Of a stretch of DNA of 64,000 nucleotides, positions 29,112-38,070 are shown one piece after another. The notes beneath the pieces were generated by a model. It ran no database searches. It was not told the DNA's origin and was given only the letters and a program-made list of their open reading frames with translations. The stretch is from Haloarchaeobius sp. HME9146 (GTDB lineage: Archaea > Halobacteriota > Halobacteria > Halobacteriales > Natrialbaceae). Position numbers and translations under genes: made by a program. Positions within the stretch are counted from its first letter, which is position 1. Each line of letters starts with the position of its first letter. The DNA lies in contig NZ_JAODVR010000001.1 of the NCBI RefSeq assembly GCF_025399835.1, positions 1,612,001-1,676,000 on the forward strand. The letters run 5' to 3'.

Positions 29112-29903
29112 ATGTACGGGGGAATCGTGTTGCAGGCCGGCGGTTCCGACAGCTTCGTTCCGCGAGGGTCACGCGCTGAGATCTTCAGCCAGATCTTCGA
29201 CGTGTTCGTCGCCCTCGGGGCGCTCGTCGGCGTCGTGGTATTGTCGTACATGCTGTACAACGCGTACAAGTATCGAGACCATGAGGACCGGTCGGACGAG
29301 GACGAGTACGACCGGCCGGTTCTCGGTGAGATTCCGACCGGTGGCGGCCACGGCCGCAAACTCCTTCTCTCGTTCAGCCTCAGCGCGGTCATCGTCGTCT
29401 CGCTCGTCCTCTGGACCTACGGCGCGCTCCTCTACGTCGAACAGGGCGCAGCCGCGGCCCAGCCCACTCCGGACACTGCGGAGACGATGACCATCGAGGT
29501 GACGGGCTACCAGTACGGCTGGAAGTTCACCTACCCGAACGGTGAGCGCGTCGACGGGACGCTCCGGGTCCCGGAAGGGAAGGAGATACGGTTGAAGGTG
29601 ACATCAGAGGACGTCTTCCACAACTTCGGCATCCCGTCGTTACACGTCAAGACCGACGCCGTTCCGGGCCAGACCACCGTGACGTGGTTCGGGCCGGCCG
29701 ACGCGGGTGAGTATCAGGCACAGTGTTACGAACTCTGCGGTGCGGGACACTCCTTCATGGTGGCTGACGTCATCGTGATGGAGCAATCCGAATTCGACAC
29801 GTGGTACGAGAACATGGGCAACGAAAGCACCAGCGACAGTTCGAACAGTAGCAGCGTCACGCAGCCCGCGCTCGACGTGGCTGCCATGGAGGTCCACGCA
29901 TGA
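29112..29903 (+). CDS. coxB: cytochrome c oxidase subunit II
   Basis: A 263-residue CuA subunit. Two transmembrane helices (about 28-50 and 84-106) lead to an outward cupredoxin domain with WKFTYPNGE, a CuA His near residue 170 (FHNFGIPSLHVKTDAVPG) and the CuA cluster CYELCGAGHSFM (two Cys, His, Met, about 204-215). The Ser/Asn-rich C-terminal tail is unusual in length. It accepts electrons from a small copper protein or cytochrome and passes them to heme. Its stop overlaps the start of the next gene (ATGA). Confidence 0.96.
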   Translation: MYGGIVLQAGGSDSFVPRGSRAEIFSQIFDVFVALGALVGVVVLSYMLYNAYKYRDHEDRSDEDEYDRPVLGEIPTGGGHGRKLLLSFSLSAVIVVSLVLWTYGALLYVEQGAAAAQPTPDTAETMTIEVTGYQYGWKFTYPNGERVDGTLRVPEGKEIRLKVTSEDVFHNFGIPSLHVKTDAVPGQTTVTWFGPADAGEYQAQCYELCGAGHSFMVADVIVMEQSEFDTWYENMGNESTSDSSNSSSVTQPALDVAAMEVHA

Positions 29904-32545
29904 GCGCTGACGAGACACCCGACGACCACCGAGCCGAGGACGCGGTCGACGAGGCCCGCCCAGACGGCGGCCACGAGCCCGACGGCGGAACCCCGGTCGT
30001 CGGTGGCGAGTCGCTCCCGCTGGACGTGCCCTCGGGGCACGAATCCGAAGACCACGGTCTCCCACCCCTGTACTCCATCCGACGCTGGTTCGTCACGACG
30101 AACCACAAGGACATCGGCATCCTCTACACGGTCACGGCGCTGTTCTTCCTCATCTTCGGTGGCGTACTCGCCCTGTTGATGCGGGCCGAGCTGTGGGCCC
30201 CTGGCGCGGACGTGATGCAGGCCAACGCGTACAACCAGGCGGTCTCCGCCCACGGTCTCATCATGGTCTTCTGGTTCCTCTCACCGTTCGCACTCGGGTT
30301 CGCGAACTACATCGTCCCGCTGCAGATCGGGGCGGAGGACCTGGCGTTCCCGCGACTGAACGCGGTGTCGTACTGGATGTACCTCGCTTCGGGCGTCCTG
30401 ATGGGCATCTCGTTCTTCCAGGGCGGCACGTTCGCCGGCGGCTGGACGATGTACGCCCCGCTGAACATGCCGGTATACACACCCGAGGTCGGCGGCACGA
30501 CCGCCGTCCTCGCGCTGTTACTGTTCGTCGTCGGTGTCACCGTCGGTTCGGTGAACTTCCTGACGACCATCCATCGCATGCGGGCGGAGGGCATGACGCT
30601 CCGACGGATGCCGCTGTTCACCTGGAGCATCCTGCTCACCATCTGGATGATGCTCTTCGCGTTCGCGGCCCTGCTCGCTGCACTGATGCTGCTGAGTTCC
30701 GACCGCCTGCTCGGGACGACCTACTTCGCGACCAGCAGTCCGAACGGGTCGTTGCTGTGGGCGCACCTGTTCTGGTTCTTCGGCCACCCGGAGGTGTACA
30801 TCGTCTTCTTCCCGGCGCTGGGAGCGATGGCCGAGATCTTCCAGACGTTCTGTGGTCGGCGCATCGTCGGGCGCAAGTGGTTCATCGGCGCGATGTTGCT
30901 CGTGGCGCTCCAGAGCTTCATCGTCTGGATGCACCACATGTTCCTGACCGGCATCAACCTCGAGATCAAGACGCTGTTCATGGCGACCACCATCGGCATC
31001 TCACTGCCGTTCGACCTGATGGTGTTCGCGCTCATCTACACCATGTTGAAGGGGAAGATACGCTTCAAGACCCCCTTCCTGTTCGCCTTCGGCGGCCTCG
31101 TGCTGTTCATCCTCGGTGGCATCACCGGGGTGTTCCTCGGGGCGGTCGTGCTCGACTACTCGTTCCGTGGCACCTACTGGGTCGTCGCGCACTTCCACTA
31201 CGTCATGGTCGGCGGGGTGACCGGGCTCATCGGTGGGCTCTACTACTGGTTCCCCAAGATGACCGGCCGGATGTACGACGAGTTCCTCGGGAAGGTGAAC
31301 TTCGCGCTGTACTTCATCGGGTTCAACCTGCTCTACTTCCCGATGTTCATCGCCTGGGAGACCCCGCGGCGCGTGTTCAACTACGCGCCCGGCCTGACCG
31401 GCTGGCACCAGGTGGCGACCATCGGCGGGTTCATCCTCGGCGCGTCGTTCCTCGTGCTGTTCTACAACCTGTTCAAGAGCCTCTTCGACGGCGAGCCGGT
31501 CGACGGCAACCCGTGGCAGTACGCCTCGACGGCGGAGTGGACGGTCCCCTCCCCGCCGCCGCTTGAGAACTTCCCCGGCACGCCGACCTACGCCGACGGC
31601 TCGCTCAAGTTCAAGGGGGTGACCGCCGACGCGAGTAGCGGGGCAGCAACTGCGGACGGCGGGACCGCGAAGACCGACGGCGGCATGGTGGCCGCGAGTG
31701 CCGGCTCCGAGCTGATGGACACCCACGAGGAGCACGGCCACGAGGAGAGCCACGCGAGCCTCTGGCCGTTCATCCTCGGCCTCGGGTCGCTCATCACGCT
31801 GTTCGGCTTCTCCGGGATGATGGACGGAGCTTTCCCGCCGGGAATCGAGGGTGGCATCTACATCGGGAACGTCATCGTCGGCCTCATCATCGTGGTCGGC
31901 GCGTGTATCGGGATGGCCCGGGAGTCGTTCCACGGCCCCGTGGGCCCGTTCGGCGAGAGCTGGCCGTTCGCCGGCGTCAGCAACATGAAGCTGGGCGTCT
32001 GGCTCTACCTGGCCAGTGACATCGTGCTGTTCGGCGCGTTCATCGGCGCGTTCGTGTTCTCCCGGGTCGCCTACGGGTGGTCGGACTGGCACCACCTCAT
32101 CCCGGCGGAACACGTCGTCCTGCCCGGTCTCATCAACACGTACATCCTGCTGACGAGCAGTTTCGCGGTCGTGCTCGCGCTCGTCGCGGCCGAGAAGGGC
32201 AGCAGACTCGGTGTCGTCGCGGCGATGAGCACCACGTTCGTCCTCGGGGTGGCCTTCCTTGTGAACAAGGGCCTGGAGTGGCTGCACCTGTTCCACATCC
32301 ACTCGGGCGCGTTCCCGGAGGGATGGAACATCTCGACGAACATCGCCTCCACGACGTTCTACGTGACGACGGGCCTGCACGGCCTGCACGTCATCGTGGG
32401 GCTCATCATGGCGCTGTATATGATCGCCAGGGCCTGGCGGGGAGCCTACCTGGACGACGAAGCACCCATCGAGTACTTCGGCCTGTACTGGCACTTCGTC
32501 GACATCGTCTGGTTGTTCCTCTTCCCGCTGTTCTACATCCTCTGA
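29900..32545 (+). CDS. coxAC: fused cytochrome c oxidase subunit I-III
   Basis: An 881-residue fusion. Residues about 50-560 are subunit I: a heme ligand in VSAHGLIMVFW (near 118), HPEVY with the cross-linked His-Tyr (near 296), the CuB pair in WMHHMF (near 345) and HFHYVMVGG with two heme ligands (near 431). A Gly/Ala/Asp-rich, low-complexity linker (about 565-615) joins subunit III, which ends with the diagnostic GLYWHFVDIVWLFLFPLFYI. The enzyme reduces oxygen to water and pumps protons. The first 45 residues are an acidic extension. I-III fusions are known in haloarchaea and some other prokaryotes. Confidence 0.96.
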   Translation: MSADETPDDHRAEDAVDEARPDGGHEPDGGTPVVGGESLPLDVPSGHESEDHGLPPLYSIRRWFVTTNHKDIGILYTVTALFFLIFGGVLALLMRAELWAPGADVMQANAYNQAVSAHGLIMVFWFLSPFALGFANYIVPLQIGAEDLAFPRLNAVSYWMYLASGVLMGISFFQGGTFAGGWTMYAPLNMPVYTPEVGGTTAVLALLLFVVGVTVGSVNFLTTIHRMRAEGMTLRRMPLFTWSILLTIWMMLFAFAALLAALMLLSSDRLLGTTYFATSSPNGSLLWAHLFWFFGHPEVYIVFFPALGAMAEIFQTFCGRRIVGRKWFIGAMLLVALQSFIVWMHHMFLTGINLEIKTLFMATTIGISLPFDLMVFALIYTMLKGKIRFKTPFLFAFGGLVLFILGGITGVFLGAVVLDYSFRGTYWVVAHFHYVMVGGVTGLIGGLYYWFPKMTGRMYDEFLGKVNFALYFIGFNLLYFPMFIAWETPRRVFNYAPGLTGWHQVATIGGFILGASFLVLFYNLFKSLFDGEPVDGNPWQYASTAEWTVPSPPPLENFPGTPTYADGSLKFKGVTADASSGAATADGGTAKTDGGMVAASAGSELMDTHEEHGHEESHASLWPFILGLGSLITLFGFSGMMDGAFPPGIEGGIYIGNVIVGLIIVVGACIGMARESFHGPVGPFGESWPFAGVSNMKLGVWLYLASDIVLFGAFIGAFVFSRVAYGWSDWHHLIPAEHVVLPGLINTYILLTSSFAVVLALVAAEKGSRLGVVAAMSTTFVLGVAFLVNKGLEWLHLFHIHSGAFPEGWNISTNIASTTFYVTTGLHGLHVIVGLIMALYMIARAWRGAYLDDEAPIEYFGLYWHFVDIVWLFLFPLFYIL

Positions 32546-32556
32546 GGTGAACAAAA

Positions 32557-32826
32557 ATGTCACATACCAAACTTTACACGGTGATTTACGTGGTGTTGTT
32601 CGTGCTGGCGACCGTCCAGGCGCTCATCGAGATGATGGGCTTCCTGGAGTCGGCCTACTGGATGGCCTTCGGCATCATCATGGTGCTGTCGTTCGCCAAG
32701 GCGGTCGTCGTCGCGGGGTATTACCAGCACCTGCGCTGGGAGCCCCGGTCCGTGACGACGCTGGTACTCATCGGCCTCATCGCGGCCGTCGCGCTGACGA
32801 CTGCGGCGTCGTACTCCATCCTGTAG
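32557..32826 (+). CDS. cytochrome c oxidase subunit IV-like membrane protein
   Basis: An 89-residue protein with three hydrophobic helices (about 5-25, 32-53 and 66-86), separated by YQHLRWEPRSV. Small three-helix proteins with this layout are subunit IV (CtaF/CoxD-like) of prokaryotic heme-copper oxidases. It starts 11 bases after the subunit I-III gene and completes the operon. Confidence 0.86.
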   Translation: MSHTKLYTVIYVVLFVLATVQALIEMMGFLESAYWMAFGIIMVLSFAKAVVVAGYYQHLRWEPRSVTTLVLIGLIAAVALTTAASYSIL

Positions 32827-32907
32827 GCAGCCGTTTCTGTTCGACCGTTTTGCACCCGCACCTGCACGTCCATAACCAAGATGTGAGTGACGACCGTCGA
32901 GACGACC

Positions 32908-33426
32908 ATGCAGGTCCGCGAAGCGCCCGAGTCCGACGTCGAGGCAATCCGTCGCGTGCACGCTGCCTCCATCCGCGAGCTGGGCCGCCGGACCTACAGC
33001 GACGAGCAGGTCGAGGCGTGGGCCGCCGGGTGCGAGACGGCCGACTACGCCGACATCGTCGAGGACGACTGCTACTTCGTGGTCGCGGAGACCGAAGACG
33101 GCGATAGCGCCGACGTCGTCGCCTTCGGTTCGCTCTGGTTCACGCCCCCGGACGACTACGAGCGCCCGCTCGACGCCGAGGTGACCGCGGTGTACGTCCA
33201 CCCGTCGGCTGCCCGGACGGGTGTCGGTTCGGCGGTGCTCGCCGACCTGGAGGACCGGGCGCGCAATCGGGGGGCGACCACCCTCGGGCTCACGGCCTCA
33301 ACCAACGCGGTTCCGTTCTACCAGGCGCGCGGCTACGAGACGGTGAGAGAGCGCAGCCACGAGTTCTCCGGCCACGAGTCGACCGGCGTCGAAGGGACGG
33401 TCGTCGAGATGTACAAGGAACTGTGA
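32908..33426 (+). CDS. GNAT-family N-acetyltransferase
   Basis: A 172-residue acetyl-CoA-dependent acyltransferase. Motif A is AVYVHPSAARTGVGSAVLADLEDRA (pyrophosphate-binding loop RTGVGS), followed by LGLTASTNAVPFYQARGY. The start is taken at ATG 32908 (MQVREAPESDVEAI); a GTG at 32887 in the same frame is a possible alternative. The acceptor (protein, amine or antibiotic) cannot be read. It ends 21 bases before the convergent membrane operon. Confidence 0.87.
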   Translation: MQVREAPESDVEAIRRVHAASIRELGRRTYSDEQVEAWAAGCETADYADIVEDDCYFVVAETEDGDSADVVAFGSLWFTPPDDYERPLDAEVTAVYVHPSAARTGVGSAVLADLEDRARNRGATTLGLTASTNAVPFYQARGYETVRERSHEFSGHESTGVEGTVVEMYKEL

Positions 33427-33447: not shown

Positions 33448-34611
33448 TCAGCGGTCGCACGTCTCGTCCACACCGGCCGAAAGCGTCACCGCGTTCGCCG
33501 TCAGGAGCGCGATAGCCCCCACCAGGAACACGGTCGCGAGCGGTGACTCCGGGTCGGTGAACGCCCAGTACAGCGGGCTCGCCGAGGCACCGAAGGCCGC
33601 GCTGGCGACGCCGTAGATGGCCGGGCCACAGCAACAGCAGGCGGTCGCACCAGTGGTCGCGAGCGCGCCGGTGACGCCCTGGACGGTCCCACCGTCGGTC
33701 GCGGCGCGGTCGGCCGCGGGTCCATCGTCGGCGGTCCGGGTCCGCCACGTCGCCACGCCGAGGGTGGCGTTCATCGTCACCAGCCCAGCCAGCACCACGA
33801 CCACGAGCGCGGTCCCGACCGAGACGGCCGCGAACAGCGGAATCGAGGGGCGGTACAGTTCGATGGCGGGCCACATCACCAGCGGGCTGGCGAACTCGGT
33901 GACGACGGTGAACGCTTCGCCCCGGGCCGGCGGCACGTCCTCGGGGTTGAACGAGAGTAGCCCCGAGGAGACGACGAAGAAGGCGGTGAAGCCGAGTCCC
34001 GCGAGTGCACCCACAGTCCGGGCACGCCGGCCAACCCGGGCGAGCGCGGGGACGACCTCGGTCCAGACGATGTAGCCGAGGACCACGGGGACCGCGAGCA
34101 CCAGCACGTAGCCGAGGGGATGGAAGACGGTCTCGCCGGGCAGCAGCTGTGGGTACGCGACCCAGAGCCCGAGGAGGGTCCCCAGAACCGGATAGGCGTG
34201 GTGGTCGCCCCAGCGGGTGTGGTACAGGACGAGGCTGGCCAGGGCGATGCCCATCCCGCCGAAGAAGGTCAGCGCGGGGTAGTACACCCGGGTCAGGGGC
34301 GTCGTCCCGATGGGTTCGACCTGCAGTTCGACCAGCCCGACGACGCCGAGTGCGGTCATCGAGCCGCCGACGAGGAGTCCGACGGCGGCCAGTCTGGGGT
34401 CGAGCCGACTCCCGAAGCGCTTCCAGAACCGGTCGCGGAGCGCGGTTGCACCGAGGACGCCAACCCCGAGGACCAACAGCGTGAGCAGGACCACGTGGGG
34501 GACGCCCCCGTGGACGGTCCCGTCGTGGGCACTGGCGGTTGGGACGAGCGAGAGGCTCGCGATGGTCAGCAAGAGCGTCGTCAGGCGGCGGTCGTTTGGT
34601 GGTAGGTGCAT
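33448..34611 (-). CDS. polytopic membrane protein with signal peptide and CCCC motif, unknown function
   Basis: A 387-residue protein, last gene of a tight five-gene operon. A signal-like N-terminus (TLLLTIASLSLVPTASA) precedes HDGTVHGGVPH, a His-rich opening of the mature chain. About eight transmembrane helices follow. Near the C-terminus TTGATACCCCGPAIYG puts four consecutive cysteines inside a hydrophobic segment, reminiscent of membrane metal-transport proteins such as MerT. The start is ATG 34611, with a GTG at 34617 also in frame. Metal or redox handling is a hypothesis only. Its convergent neighbour is the cytochrome oxidase operon. Confidence 0.75.
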   Translation of the reverse strand: MHLPPNDRRLTTLLLTIASLSLVPTASAHDGTVHGGVPHVVLLTLLVLGVGVLGATALRDRFWKRFGSRLDPRLAAVGLLVGGSMTALGVVGLVELQVEPIGTTPLTRVYYPALTFFGGMGIALASLVLYHTRWGDHHAYPVLGTLLGLWVAYPQLLPGETVFHPLGYVLVLAVPVVLGYIVWTEVVPALARVGRRARTVGALAGLGFTAFFVVSSGLLSFNPEDVPPARGEAFTVVTEFASPLVMWPAIELYRPSIPLFAAVSVGTALVVVVLAGLVTMNATLGVATWRTRTADDGPAADRAATDGGTVQGVTGALATTGATACCCCGPAIYGVASAAFGASASPLYWAFTDPESPLATVFLVGAIALLTANAVTLSAGVDETCDR

Positions 34612-34613
34612 GG

Positions 34614-34949
34614 TCACAGTGAGAGGACGATCATGTAGACGAGGACGATGACGGCATAGAGCGACCCGAGGGTCGCGATGACCTTCAGGTGGTAGAGGAA
34701 CAGCTCGTCGTCCTCCTCGTCTTTGGCCTGCGCGTACGTCTCGTACTCCTCGGCGGTCAGGTCGTCCCGGTGTCGCTCTCCGAGGTGGAGTGCGTGGAGG
34801 TGCTCGGACGGGAACGGGCGGTCACAGACCCGACACCGGGCGGCGACCGTCTCCTCCTCGAGGATGGTCGTCGCCGTCTCGGCCTGCATCTCGGTGTCGC
34901 CGGGGGGCGAGTCGGTCGATCGTGTGTGGTCGATGTCGTGGGTAGCCAT
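34614..34949 (-). CDS. small zinc-finger membrane protein
   Basis: A 111-residue protein. A cytoplasmic C2H2-type finger (CRVCDRPFPSEHLHALHLGERH, about residues 37-58) is joined by an acidic stretch to one C-terminal transmembrane helix (VIATLGSLYAVIVLVYMIVLSL). Combining a zinc finger with a tail anchor suggests a membrane-tethered adaptor or regulator. It lies two bases from each neighbouring gene in the operon. Confidence 0.8.
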   Translation of the reverse strand: MATHDIDHTRSTDSPPGDTEMQAETATTILEEETVAARCRVCDRPFPSEHLHALHLGERHRDDLTAEEYETYAQAKDEEDDELFLYHLKVIATLGSLYAVIVLVYMIVLSL

Positions 34950-34951
34950 GG

Positions 34952-36349
34952 TCAGAGGAACGGGGGTTTCACGTACGGTTGGGCGACCAGCCACATGCTG
35001 GTCATCGTGTAGAACACCATCACGAGCGCGAACGGGTACTGGCTCCGGATGGGCTGGAGTCGCCCCGTGAACGTCTCGAACGCGATGGCGTGGGCGACCC
35101 AGATTGCGACGAGGTGCCCCAGGACGACGAACGCCAGCTGGAGGCTGCCGAACCAGCCCGGGAGCACCGCGACCTGGACCGTCGCCGGCGGGTCGAACGG
35201 CGACAGCGCGACCGCCGACAGCGCGGGCGAGAGCGTCAGGAAGTAGCCCAGGAAGTGCGCGAGGTGGTAGCCGGCGGCGATGGGAACCAGCGACCAGACG
35301 AACCGGCGCTGGATGACGGCGGGGTCGACGAACGAGCCGGCGGTTCGCCGGGAGAGCCGGGACGCGAGGCGGTACACGGCCAGGAACAGCGCGAACCCGG
35401 CGACCGCGGTCGTCAGGTACACCGCGAGCGCCGGCACGCCGAGGCCGACGGCTGCCCGGACGAACTCGGCGTGCGGGCCGGTCGACACCAGCCCGTCGTA
35501 GGAGGTCACCCACAGCAGGGCGACCACGAACACCACCTCGGCGTCGGTCCCCTCGTCGTAGTTGCGGGCGAGTGCCGCGCCCGGAAGCGAGAGCGAGAGG
35601 CCGTTCTCGGTCCGGCGAATCGGGGCCATCCGGCCGTAGGTGTGGAACACTCGCGAGACCGGGTCGGCCTCCCTGAACCAGCTTGCACCGAACACGAGCG
35701 CGCCGCCCAGCGTCCCGAGCGTGTACGCAAGGATGACGCCGGCGAGGAACCGTGGTTCCGAGGCGATGGGCGTGACGACCTCCAGCCAGACGAGCGCAAG
35801 GAGGCCGATCGCTGCCGGCCAGCCGCCGAGGTGACTCGGCCACGAGCGCGAGCCGACTCTCGGCAACAGGGACGCGATGGCGCGCCACGGGTTGAGCACC
35901 GGCCAGGAGTCGCCGAGCAGGTACACCGAGATGGTGTAACCGGCCCACCACCCGGCCCAGACGCCCAGGACCGCGAGGTTCCGGAGCGGGTCGGTGATGT
36001 CGAACTGGTCGGCGAACAGCCCGGTCACGACGAACAGACCGAGGACGGCGACACTGCCGACCCGGGCCAGCGCGACGACGGCCCGGCGAACCGTCGCCGG
36101 CGACGGGACCGTGAGCCCGAGCCGGTTTATCTCCCGGATGAAGTCGTGGTCGGTCGCGAAGCTCGTGAAGAGGAACGACGCCCCGATGACGCCGCCGCCG
36201 GTCAGCACGACCAGCCAGAACGGGATGGGGACCGAGGTGAGCGTCCCGCCCAGCGTCCCGACGTGGGCCAGCGCGGGGTCGACGAACAGCACGAGTGCGA
36301 CCCCCAGTGTCGCCGCCGAGGCCAGCCGCGAGAACTCACGCGCCGCCAC
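34952..36349 (-). CDS. large polytopic membrane protein, unknown function
   Basis: A 465-residue protein with about twelve hydrophobic helices, beginning at GTG 36349 within the end of the preceding gene (14-base overlap). The N-terminus is signal-like (LGVALVLFVDPALAHVG). His and aromatic residues lie near helix ends (YHLAHFLGYF, GHLVAIWVAHAI). No transporter or enzyme signature is visible. Its place in a coupled operon with small Cys/His membrane proteins suggests a shared complex. The start could also be one codon away, but no ATG is available nearby. Confidence 0.72.
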   Translation of the reverse strand: MAAREFSRLASAATLGVALVLFVDPALAHVGTLGGTLTSVPIPFWLVVLTGGGVIGASFLFTSFATDHDFIREINRLGLTVPSPATVRRAVVALARVGSVAVLGLFVVTGLFADQFDITDPLRNLAVLGVWAGWWAGYTISVYLLGDSWPVLNPWRAIASLLPRVGSRSWPSHLGGWPAAIGLLALVWLEVVTPIASEPRFLAGVILAYTLGTLGGALVFGASWFREADPVSRVFHTYGRMAPIRRTENGLSLSLPGAALARNYDEGTDAEVVFVVALLWVTSYDGLVSTGPHAEFVRAAVGLGVPALAVYLTTAVAGFALFLAVYRLASRLSRRTAGSFVDPAVIQRRFVWSLVPIAAGYHLAHFLGYFLTLSPALSAVALSPFDPPATVQVAVLPGWFGSLQLAFVVLGHLVAIWVAHAIAFETFTGRLQPIRSQYPFALVMVFYTMTSMWLVAQPYVKPPFL

Positions 36350-37019
36350 GACTGGGCACCCCCGGCCGCCAGTACAGCAAGGCGACGGCCACCACGAACA
36401 CCAGCGTCGAGAGGTCGACACCGAAAGCGTAGACGGTCGCCAGCGCGGCGGCCGACCCTGCCGTCCCCGACGCCAGCGACGAGAGCAGCGGGAACGCACA
36501 GCTCACGCAGGAGAACAGCCCGATGAGCCCGGTCGCACTCGCCGACAGCGATTCGAGGACGGTGGCGTAGACGAGGTACGCGAGCGAGAGGTAGCCGACG
36601 ACCCGGAACGGGACCAGCGCGAACTGGAACACCGCGCCGGTGTACGACAGCGTCGGGCCCCACCCCGGCGAGGGCATCGCAACCGAGACCCCGCTGGCGG
36701 CGTGGTCGTGGCCCGCCGGTGCCAGCGAGACCATCCCCGCGAACCACGCGAGCAGCAGGAAGTAGCCCACGGCGACCGCGACACCGAGGAGCCGATATCT
36801 CCGTGCGGTCGGAATCGGGTCCGTGGCGACCACCGCGAGCACGCCGACGTTTATCCAGACGAACGGGTACAGCGCATAGCGTACCGAGACGAGCTCGCTG
36901 CTCGTGAACCGGAAGTAGGCCACGACCGCGAGCAGCTCCAGCGCACAGAGCAACCCGAGCCACAGCACTCGCTCACTCGGGAGTGCATCGAGGGTCGAAC
37001 GCGCCGTGTTCGAGGACAT
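36336..37019 (-). CDS. membrane protein with CxxC motif, unknown function
   Basis: A 227-residue protein with six predicted helices. GLIGLFSCVSCAFPLLSS places a CxxC in a membrane segment, in a sequence environment much like the CCCC region of the last gene of the operon (Gly-rich, followed by Ala/Ser/Gly). A loop reads AGHDHAASG. These features suggest that the two proteins are distantly related or act on the same metal or thiol. It begins two bases after the preceding gene's stop. Confidence 0.76.
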   Translation of the reverse strand: MSSNTARSTLDALPSERVLWLGLLCALELLAVVAYFRFTSSELVSVRYALYPFVWINVGVLAVVATDPIPTARRYRLLGVAVAVGYFLLLAWFAGMVSLAPAGHDHAASGVSVAMPSPGWGPTLSYTGAVFQFALVPFRVVGYLSLAYLVYATVLESLSASATGLIGLFSCVSCAFPLLSSLASGTAGSAAALATVYAFGVDLSTLVFVVAVALLYWRPGVPSRGGA

Positions 37020-37021
37020 CC

Positions 37022-37438
37022 TCACCCGACGATGAGTTTCACGGCGATGACCAGGACGAACAGGACCCCGAAGGCCCACGCGCTCACCATCGCGGCGGTT
37101 GCGCTCGTGAGCCCGCGGTTCTTGCTGGAGCGATAGGTGCCGAAGACGATCCAGCCGGCGAACAGCCCGCCGGTGGCGACGACGAGCAACCACTGGAGCG
37201 TCGCCCTGCCGGCCGCGTCAGCGCCGACGTATGCGACCGCACCCGCCCCGATTCCCCCGAGGATGAAGAAGAACCCGAGGGTCCAGACCAGCTGGTTGTT
37301 CAAGAGCTCGTGCCACCCCGGGCCCTCCTTCGCCCCGAACTTCGGCGTGTAGCTGGCCTTCTCGCGCACACTGACCAATACGAAGATGGCGGCGAGGAAG
37401 CCACCCATGACCAGCGCCGCCCCGGTGAAGTGTGACAT
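37022..37438 (-). CDS. four-helix membrane protein, first gene of the operon
   Basis: A 138-residue protein with four transmembrane helices (about 5-25, 48-70, 80-100 and 112-135) and one cytoplasmic or outer loop (REKASYTPKFGAKEGPGWHELL). It heads a five-gene minus-strand operon ending at 33448. A TATA-like element and nested palindromes lie just upstream. It matches no family I recognise. Confidence 0.76.
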   Translation of the reverse strand: MSHFTGAALVMGGFLAAIFVLVSVREKASYTPKFGAKEGPGWHELLNNQLVWTLGFFFILGGIGAGAVAYVGADAAGRATLQWLLVVATGGLFAGWIVFGTYRSSKNRGLTSATAAMVSAWAFGVLFVLVIAVKLIVG

Positions 37439-37447
37439 GGTGTTAGG

Positions 37448-37478
37448 TGACAGTTGTCATCTGATGACTTTAAGTTTA
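37448..37478 (-). promoter_or_regulatory. promoter of the five-gene membrane operon with nested palindromes
   Basis: The reversed TATA-like CTTTAAGTTTA (plus strand 37468-37478) is 30-40 bases before the start codon. Between it and the gene lie TGACA-GT-TGTCA (37448-37459) and the overlapping GTCATC-T-GATGAC (37456-37468). Two overlapping inverted repeats at this spot suggest repressor binding. Confidence 0.5.
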
Positions 37479-37529: not shown

Positions 37530-38027
37530 CTACACGTAGAACCAGTCGAACGAGATGGTCGAGTCGTCCTCGACCGTGACGAACAGCGCCTTCTCGATGG
37601 TTCCAGACACTCGCTCGACCTCCCACTCGAACGTCGCTGTTCGACCCTCCGACACCGCCACGGAAACCGTGTACGTCCCCGGTTCCGTGAATGGAATACA
37701 CGTCTCGGTGTTCGTCTCCCCCGGGCCGAGCGTGTACTCCCGTTCGAGTATCGGGTCCGCCCCTCCACTGGCCCCGAGGTCGACCCGGAGCGTGACGGTG
37801 TGCGTGTCGCTGTCGTCGTTCATGAGACCGATGTCGTACCCCGCCGAGCTGGTCCCTTCCGGGGTGTACGACGCACATCTATCGCCTGCCGGGTCGGGAG
37901 TATCTGTCCGTGTTCCCGTCGAGGACTTAGTACCGGTGTCGATAGCCGAGAGACACCCGGCACCGCCCGTGATGAGGAGTCCACTAAAGTAGCGGAGGGC
38001 ACGACGACGAGAACAGGAGGGCTTCAT
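37530..38027 (-). CDS. exported lipoprotein, unknown function
   Basis: A 165-residue protein with an Arg-rich Tat-like N-terminus (SRRRALRYFSG), lipobox (GGAGC) and Thr/Ser/Asp linker, then a single beta-sandwich domain (HTVTLRVDLGASGG, LGPGETNTETCIPF, PGTYTVSVAVSEG) like those of surface-exposed haloarchaeal lipoproteins. Two Cys (in DRCASYT and TETCIPF) may form a disulfide. It is monocistronic. Confidence 0.78.
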   Translation of the reverse strand: MKPSCSRRRALRYFSGLLITGGAGCLSAIDTGTKSSTGTRTDTPDPAGDRCASYTPEGTSSAGYDIGLMNDDSDTHTVTLRVDLGASGGADPILEREYTLGPGETNTETCIPFTEPGTYTVSVAVSEGRTATFEWEVERVSGTIEKALFVTVEDDSTISFDWFYV

Positions 38028-38034
38028 CGGTACG

Positions 38035-38070
38035 AATTGACACACACACATAATAAGTATTCTGTCAATT
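38035..38070 (-). promoter_or_regulatory. 8-bp inverted repeat enclosing the lipoprotein TATA box
   Basis: AATTGACA (38035-38042) and TGTCAATT (38063-38070) are perfect complements. The 20-base spacer contains the minus-strand TATA element ACTTATTAT (about 38049-38058), itself 22-31 bases before the lipoprotein ATG. A dimeric protein bound to both arms would cover the promoter. Confidence 0.6.

Follow-up and report, generated by a model that had tools for sequence, protein, structure and literature searches.

A conserved haloarchaeal cassette of membrane proteins linked to the heme-copper oxidase operon, with one recruited gene

Gene content of the locus

The window analysed here is a stretch of 64,000 nucleotides from Haloarchaeobius sp. 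HME9146, and it contains a compact minus-strand operon (33448 to 37438) of five genes that we call A, B, C, D, and E in 5′ to 3′ order. Gene A (37022..37438) encodes a protein of 138 residues with 4 transmembrane (TM) helices and no conserved Cys or His; B (36336..37019) encodes 227 residues with 6 TM helices and belongs to DUF7546 (PF24412); C (34952..36349), which begins with GTG, encodes 465 residues with a signal-like N-terminus and 10 TM helices; D (34614..34949) encodes 111 residues with a DUF7410 C2H2 zinc finger and a C-terminal TM anchor; and E (33448..34611) encodes 387 residues with a signal-like N-terminus, about 9 TM helices, and a CCCC motif. Codon usage is coding-like in all five, and each product is predicted to have TM helices, as an earlier note on this DNA had claimed. 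That note had also described five minus-strand genes separated by two bases or overlapping by up to 14, and the measured intergenic distances are indeed 2 (A-B), −14 (B-C), 2 (C-D), and 2 (D-E) bases; the stop and start codons set two bases apart (TGA-CC-ATG, TGA-GG-ATG) suggest that translation may be coupled within the operon.

The region immediately 5′ of A (37439..37475, minus strand) may contain a promoter and operator: a TATA-like TTAAA lies at 37469-37473, 31 to 35 bases before A, and an 18-base imperfect palindrome, AGATGACAACTGTCACCT, lies at 37445-37462, just 5′ of the A start codon. The palindrome is a possible operator; it was looked for in relatives and is not kept there. On the same strand, 91 bases upstream of A, a gene at 37530-38051 encodes a signal-bearing, lipobox-like protein of 173 residues for which we found only a weak PKD-like match.

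The A-E operon converges on a plus-strand heme-copper oxidase operon, as had been noted before, and the oxidase genes could be identified as CoxB (29112..29903), encoding oxidase subunit II (COX2) with its CuA ligands CYELCGAGHSFM; CoxAC (29900..32545), in which oxidase subunits I and III (COX1 and COX3) are joined in a single protein of 881 residues; and CoxIV (32557..32826), encoding oxidase subunit IV (COX4_pro) of 89 residues. A plus-strand GNAT gene (32887-33426) intervenes between the two operons.

Families and conserved residues

Two of the five proteins are members by score of families without an assigned function: B matches DUF7546 over residues 2-221 with 248.7 bits (cut-off 27, E 6.4e-74), and D matches DUF7410 (PF24166) with 30 bits (cut-off 27.5, E 5e-7). 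The model descriptions of both families mention neither an oxidase linkage nor a His-rich loop. Neither Pfam nor NCBIfam has a family that is matched by A, C, or E, whether singly or consistently across their homologue alignments, and a literature search on the A-E genes found no paper; nor are these genes mentioned, under selected terms, in a survey of copper genes in H. mediterranei. Conserved residues in A are F56, G100, R108, G109, G124, and L135.

The structure model of B (pLDDT 77, moderate) has 6 TM helices and an outer loop carrying H104-x-H106, and its TM5 contains the motif C171-x-x-C174-x-x-P177, so that the protein earlier described as having CxxC in a helix is B. C171 and C174 are invariant, in copies on the oxidase side and in copies beside a CtaA/CtaB fusion alike. 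The outer loop distinguishes these two kinds of B: it has at least two His in 27 of 30 distinct oxidase-side sequences (those adjoining A), often as HxHxH, but in none of 11 paralogues adjoining the CtaA/CtaB fusion (Fisher p 1e-7, for sequences that are not independent). Gain of an outer His-rich loop by the oxidase-side paralogue is the outcome that a metal-collecting role predicts.

C had been taken for a 12-helix protein, but its structure model (pLDDT 93) fits better with a signal helix followed by 10 TM helices. In an alignment of 34 sequences, four of them bacterial, H365, H412, and H420 are invariant and H362 is near-invariant, all four falling in TM8 or TM9, and the mature start AxA-H29 is mostly conserved. 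Positive-inside charge counts over 69 homologues place the mature N-terminus outside. The nearest homologues, also from Haloarchaeobius, are 63% identical. The C model has no Foldseek match in the PDB at E ≤ 0.001 (the best VIA Z was 4.5 over 92 residues), B likewise has no solved-fold match at that threshold, and a sequence search for solved relatives of B, C, and E gave no meaningful match; as modelled, C and B thus appear to lack a solved counterpart, which would not in itself prove a new fold.

D is, as the earlier note had it, a tail-anchored C2H2 protein, with a classical finger (C-x2-C-x12-H-x4-H; C39, C42, H55, and H60 invariant in 49 sequences) followed by a C-terminal TM helix. E is the signal-bearing protein with CCCC in a helix: hydropathy and charge give about 9 TM helices, TM8 carrying C325-C328 and then P330 at its inner end, and three of the four Cys are present in 95-100% of 20 sequences. 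Its signal-like N-terminus ends, as in C, with AxA-H29; the mature N-terminal His is found in 90%, and positive-inside counts again place the mature N-terminus outside. Similar surroundings had been claimed for the cysteines of B and those of E; profile alignment does not support homology of the two regions (probability 2.3%, E 0.02), which have in common only a short C-x-C/CC-x-x-P motif.

Linkage to oxidase genes across haloarchaea

Homologues of A, B, C, and E were sought in 194 haloarchaeal genomes, 190 of which have heme-copper oxidase genes; A is present in 61, B in 126, C in 136, and E in 34. In many genera, A-B-C-D, A-C-D, A-D, or A-B is convergent to CoxB-CoxAC-CoxIV. Because some of the A-type loci were picked for the presence of A, an unbiased scan with the C alignment against 84,980 species genomes, which yielded 79 loci with C, is the fairer test. 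Specifically, i) 19 of the 21 scanned loci with A lie convergent at a CoxB-CoxAC-CoxIV operon, nine of the 21 being Haloferax, and in relatives of Haloferax volcanii A-(B)-C-D adjoins the CoxAC operon; ii) an oxidase subunit gene lies within seven genes of C in 53 of the 79 loci, 25 of them with subunit I and 28 with other subunits alone, where the chance expectation for subunit I is about 2%, estimated from several heme-copper oxidase genes in 3-4 Mb; iii) D adjoins C in 72 of the 79 loci, and is thus a near-obligate partner; and iv) about one C-D copy in three lacks an oxidase gene in its vicinity, and in 21 of the 79 loci C has no oxidase gene and no metal gene near it. The order and convergent placement of A-B-C-D exceed chance and recur in many genera. 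The earlier note had held that its hypothesis would fall if the cluster occurred mostly away from terminal oxidases in other genomes; for A-B-C-D the outcome is in favour of the hypothesis.

Other C-D copies adjoin CoxC or sit inside a CtaAB-CoxB-CoxC cluster. One such cluster is found in the present genome, about 120 kb away (about 1762000-1768000), in the order B-CtaA/CtaB fusion-CoxB-CoxC-C-D, and its B has no His-rich loop. In related oxidase loci, a gene for a DUF6789 membrane protein repeatedly adjoins CoxB; it is absent from the present window.

Gene E as a recruit from heavy-metal loci

The five genes had been regarded as almost certainly one translation unit. As a cassette conserved in many genera, A-B-C-D stands by itself, and E lies outside the conserved unit. 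No oxidase genes were seen around 17 copies of E elsewhere, 11 of which are near P-type heavy-metal ATPases, CDF transporters, or P19-like proteins (PF10634 plus DUF7350); in the closest relatives, also Haloarchaeobius, CoxIV comes directly after D, without E. We infer from these two observations that E was recruited into the operon from metal loci. The ATPase neighbours of C or E do not point to copper in particular, since inspection of their motifs finds a mixture, several being of the zinc-type CPC kind (CPCAFVISTP, GDAGMT) and others of the CPH type; the idea that all of them are copper-type had to be given up on the same grounds.

The grouping of E with the P19-like protein (PF10634 plus DUF7350), a Tat-signal protein, and heavy-metal ATPases is seen repeatedly on haloarchaeal plasmids and in chromosomal islands, and such an island is possibly a metal-uptake island in its own right.

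Comparison with known copper and assembly factors

The earlier note had found no known assembly factor among the five genes, and our searches bear this out: A-E have no match to Cox11/CtaG (PF04442) at E up to 1, to Caa3_CtaG (PF09678), to SCO1/SenC (PF02630), or in Pfam to CopD (PF05425). Comparison of A, B, C, and E with 7 haloarchaeal CopD proteins by hhalign gave P 0.012-0.33 in shallow alignments, and identification of C, E, or B as CopD was rejected for want of profile similarity. CtaM/DUF420 is a protein of 4-5 TM helices needed for heme-copper oxidase assembly, and A resembles it in being a 4-TM protein of an oxidase locus; A was nonetheless rejected as CtaM/DUF420 (PF04238), having neither a Pfam match nor profile similarity.

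Known factors were surveyed in 97 sampled haloarchaeal genomes, with positive controls that worked for Cox11, Caa3_CtaG, and PCuAC. None of these three was found in any of the 97. DUF420/CtaM is present in 94, this genome included, as a gene separate from A; CopD is weakly present in 79 and above cut-off in 43, this genome having it only below cut-off; and Sco1 is present in 75, but was not found in this genome. Among oxidase-bearing genomes, C is present in 18 of 19 without Sco1, and Sco1 in 27 of 28 without C, a moderate pattern (p 0.01, without correction for phylogeny); Sco1 also occurs in most of the genomes that have C. The pattern is suggestive, no more, of a C module that substitutes for Sco1.

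Several known systems nevertheless offer parallels. Sco1, Cox11, and PCuAC deliver copper to CuA or CuB, the role we propose for A-D, but do so with thioredoxin-like or cupredoxin-like periplasmic domains that are absent from A-E. Caa3_CtaG (Bacillus CtaG, C. glutamicum CtiP) is, like members of the cassette, polytopic, encoded at an oxidase locus, and endowed with conserved His; it differs in having 7 TM helices rather than the 10 of C, and A-E have no sequence match to it. Its conserved TM-protein His have been proposed as metal ligands, and it is tentatively a CuB factor (PMC9145763). In Bacillus YcnJ, an extracellular copper site requires H24 and a TM site requires H295, both supporting the aa3 oxidase (PMC13344008); C and E follow the same logic of an outer His and TM His as CopC-CopD/YcnJ, but the A-E cassette has no CopC domain and no profile similarity to CopD.

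A possible role in oxidase maturation

A-B-C-D is a real, conserved, uncharacterised oxidase-linked cassette, joined here by one recruited gene. As to its function, a role in metal supply is plausible given the conserved metal ligands and the lack of Cox11, Caa3-CtaG, and PCuAC (and, in this genome, of Sco1). We would put at slightly better than even the chance that A-B-C-D is a haloarchaeal module that uses a metal, most likely copper, to mature the heme-copper oxidase of the CoxAC type (fused I/III). The earlier note had thought copper delivery or oxidase assembly a reasonable hypothesis. It stands in part: A-B-C-D is oxidase-linked and its ligands are conserved, but the copper reading is only partly supported because E elsewhere lies in heavy-metal loci, about one third of C-D copies lack an oxidase, and zinc-type ATPases are among the neighbours.

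Such a pathway might be pictured as follows: the outer His sites (the N-terminal His of C and E, and the loop of B) would capture Cu(II) outside the cell; in C the TM histidines (H362, H365, H412, and H420) and in B the intramembrane CxxC would relay or reduce the copper; the intramembrane Cys of B and E would carry the metal, perhaps as Cu(I); the metal would pass through the membrane to the apo-oxidase and reach CuA or CuB of CoxB/CoxAC; the cytosolic zinc finger of D would partner, attach, or regulate C; A, as a scaffold or an accessory subunit, would make contact with the oxidase; and E, with its mature N-terminal His and inner CCCC, would have joined the operon in this lineage to feed the same pathway. 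Alternatively, DUF420/CtaM, which is present in nearly all the surveyed genomes, could perform the export step instead. A stronger version, in which A-B-C-D is a copper-insertion machine unrelated to Cox11, CtaG, Sco1, PCuAC, or CopD that replaces Sco1 where Sco1 is absent, and which includes both a fold of 10 TM helices that has no solved relative and a copper relay from His to His/Cys, is one that we put forward tentatively and think somewhat doubtful.

Three other explanations must be weighed. A-D could be accessory subunits, structural or stabilising, that belong to the CoxAC oxidase or to a supercomplex, with His and Cys that are structural or bind zinc; the tight linkage of A-D to the oxidase operon is what one would expect, and the best PDB match of the A profile (E 0.003, about 20 bits across a hydrophobic stretch of roughly 70 residues) is 7qhm chain J, which belongs to the C. 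glutamicum bcc-aa3 supercomplex as a small accessory subunit (PMC8795186). The A-profile score of this chain exceeds that of every one of the 389 small membrane proteins used as background; at about 20 bits the match is nonetheless hydrophobic in character, and block-shuffled versions equalled the score in 2 of 2000 trials. The distribution of A is patchy, too, when set against that of heme-copper oxidase genes (61 and 190 of 194 genomes), and C-D copies also occur without an oxidase; on balance we think this explanation rather unlikely.

We consider it improbable that the module instead handles heme, whether in heme O/A trafficking or in insertion into subunit I, with the TM His of C as heme ligands. 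The B and C-D paralogues that cluster with the CtaA/CtaB fusion, CoxB, and CoxC, and the conserved His on two adjacent helices of C, fit such a role, but those His are spaced by 3 (TM8) and 8 (TM9), whereas the usual spacing in bis-heme four-helix cytochromes is 13-14, and the gained outer His-rich loop of the oxidase-side B, with its intramembrane CxxC, is more typical of metal ions. There is, finally, little likelihood that A-E is a general heavy-metal (Zn/Cu/Fe) homeostasis cassette merely co-regulated with, or hitch-hiking on, the oxidase locus, as might be read from E and some C-D copies beside zinc-type or CPH-type P-type ATPases, CDF transporters, and P19-like proteins, since the linkage of A-B-C-D to the oxidase (19 of 21 A loci) is far stronger than that to metal genes.

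To return to metal-dependent maturation of the oxidase, we found no description in the literature of how archaeal heme-copper oxidases are loaded with copper, and a cassette that is conserved, linked to the oxidase, and equipped with conserved metal ligands is a concrete candidate for that step. If the proposal is correct, it would provide the first role for DUF7546 and DUF7410, and for three families absent from Pfam and NCBIfam.

Homologues of C in bacteria

Bacterial homologues of C are 25-33% identical. The alphaproteobacterial ones lie near genes for nicotinate degradation and for TRAP and Liv transport, so the C family is not oxidase-specific, and we take these neighbourhoods as a warning that its role may be wider. 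As a lead only, the C motifs may resemble YHLAH, GHxxAxWxAH, and SQYP in bacterial multi-pass proteins annotated 'fenitrothion hydrolase'; the C homologues found in this analysis, by comparison, are annotated 'hypothetical protein'. Homologues on Sulfitobacter and Neorhizobium plasmids (25-28% identity), which have only that annotation, lie beside genes for nicotinate dehydrogenase or 6-hydroxynicotinate reductase, and also beside Liv ABC transporters.
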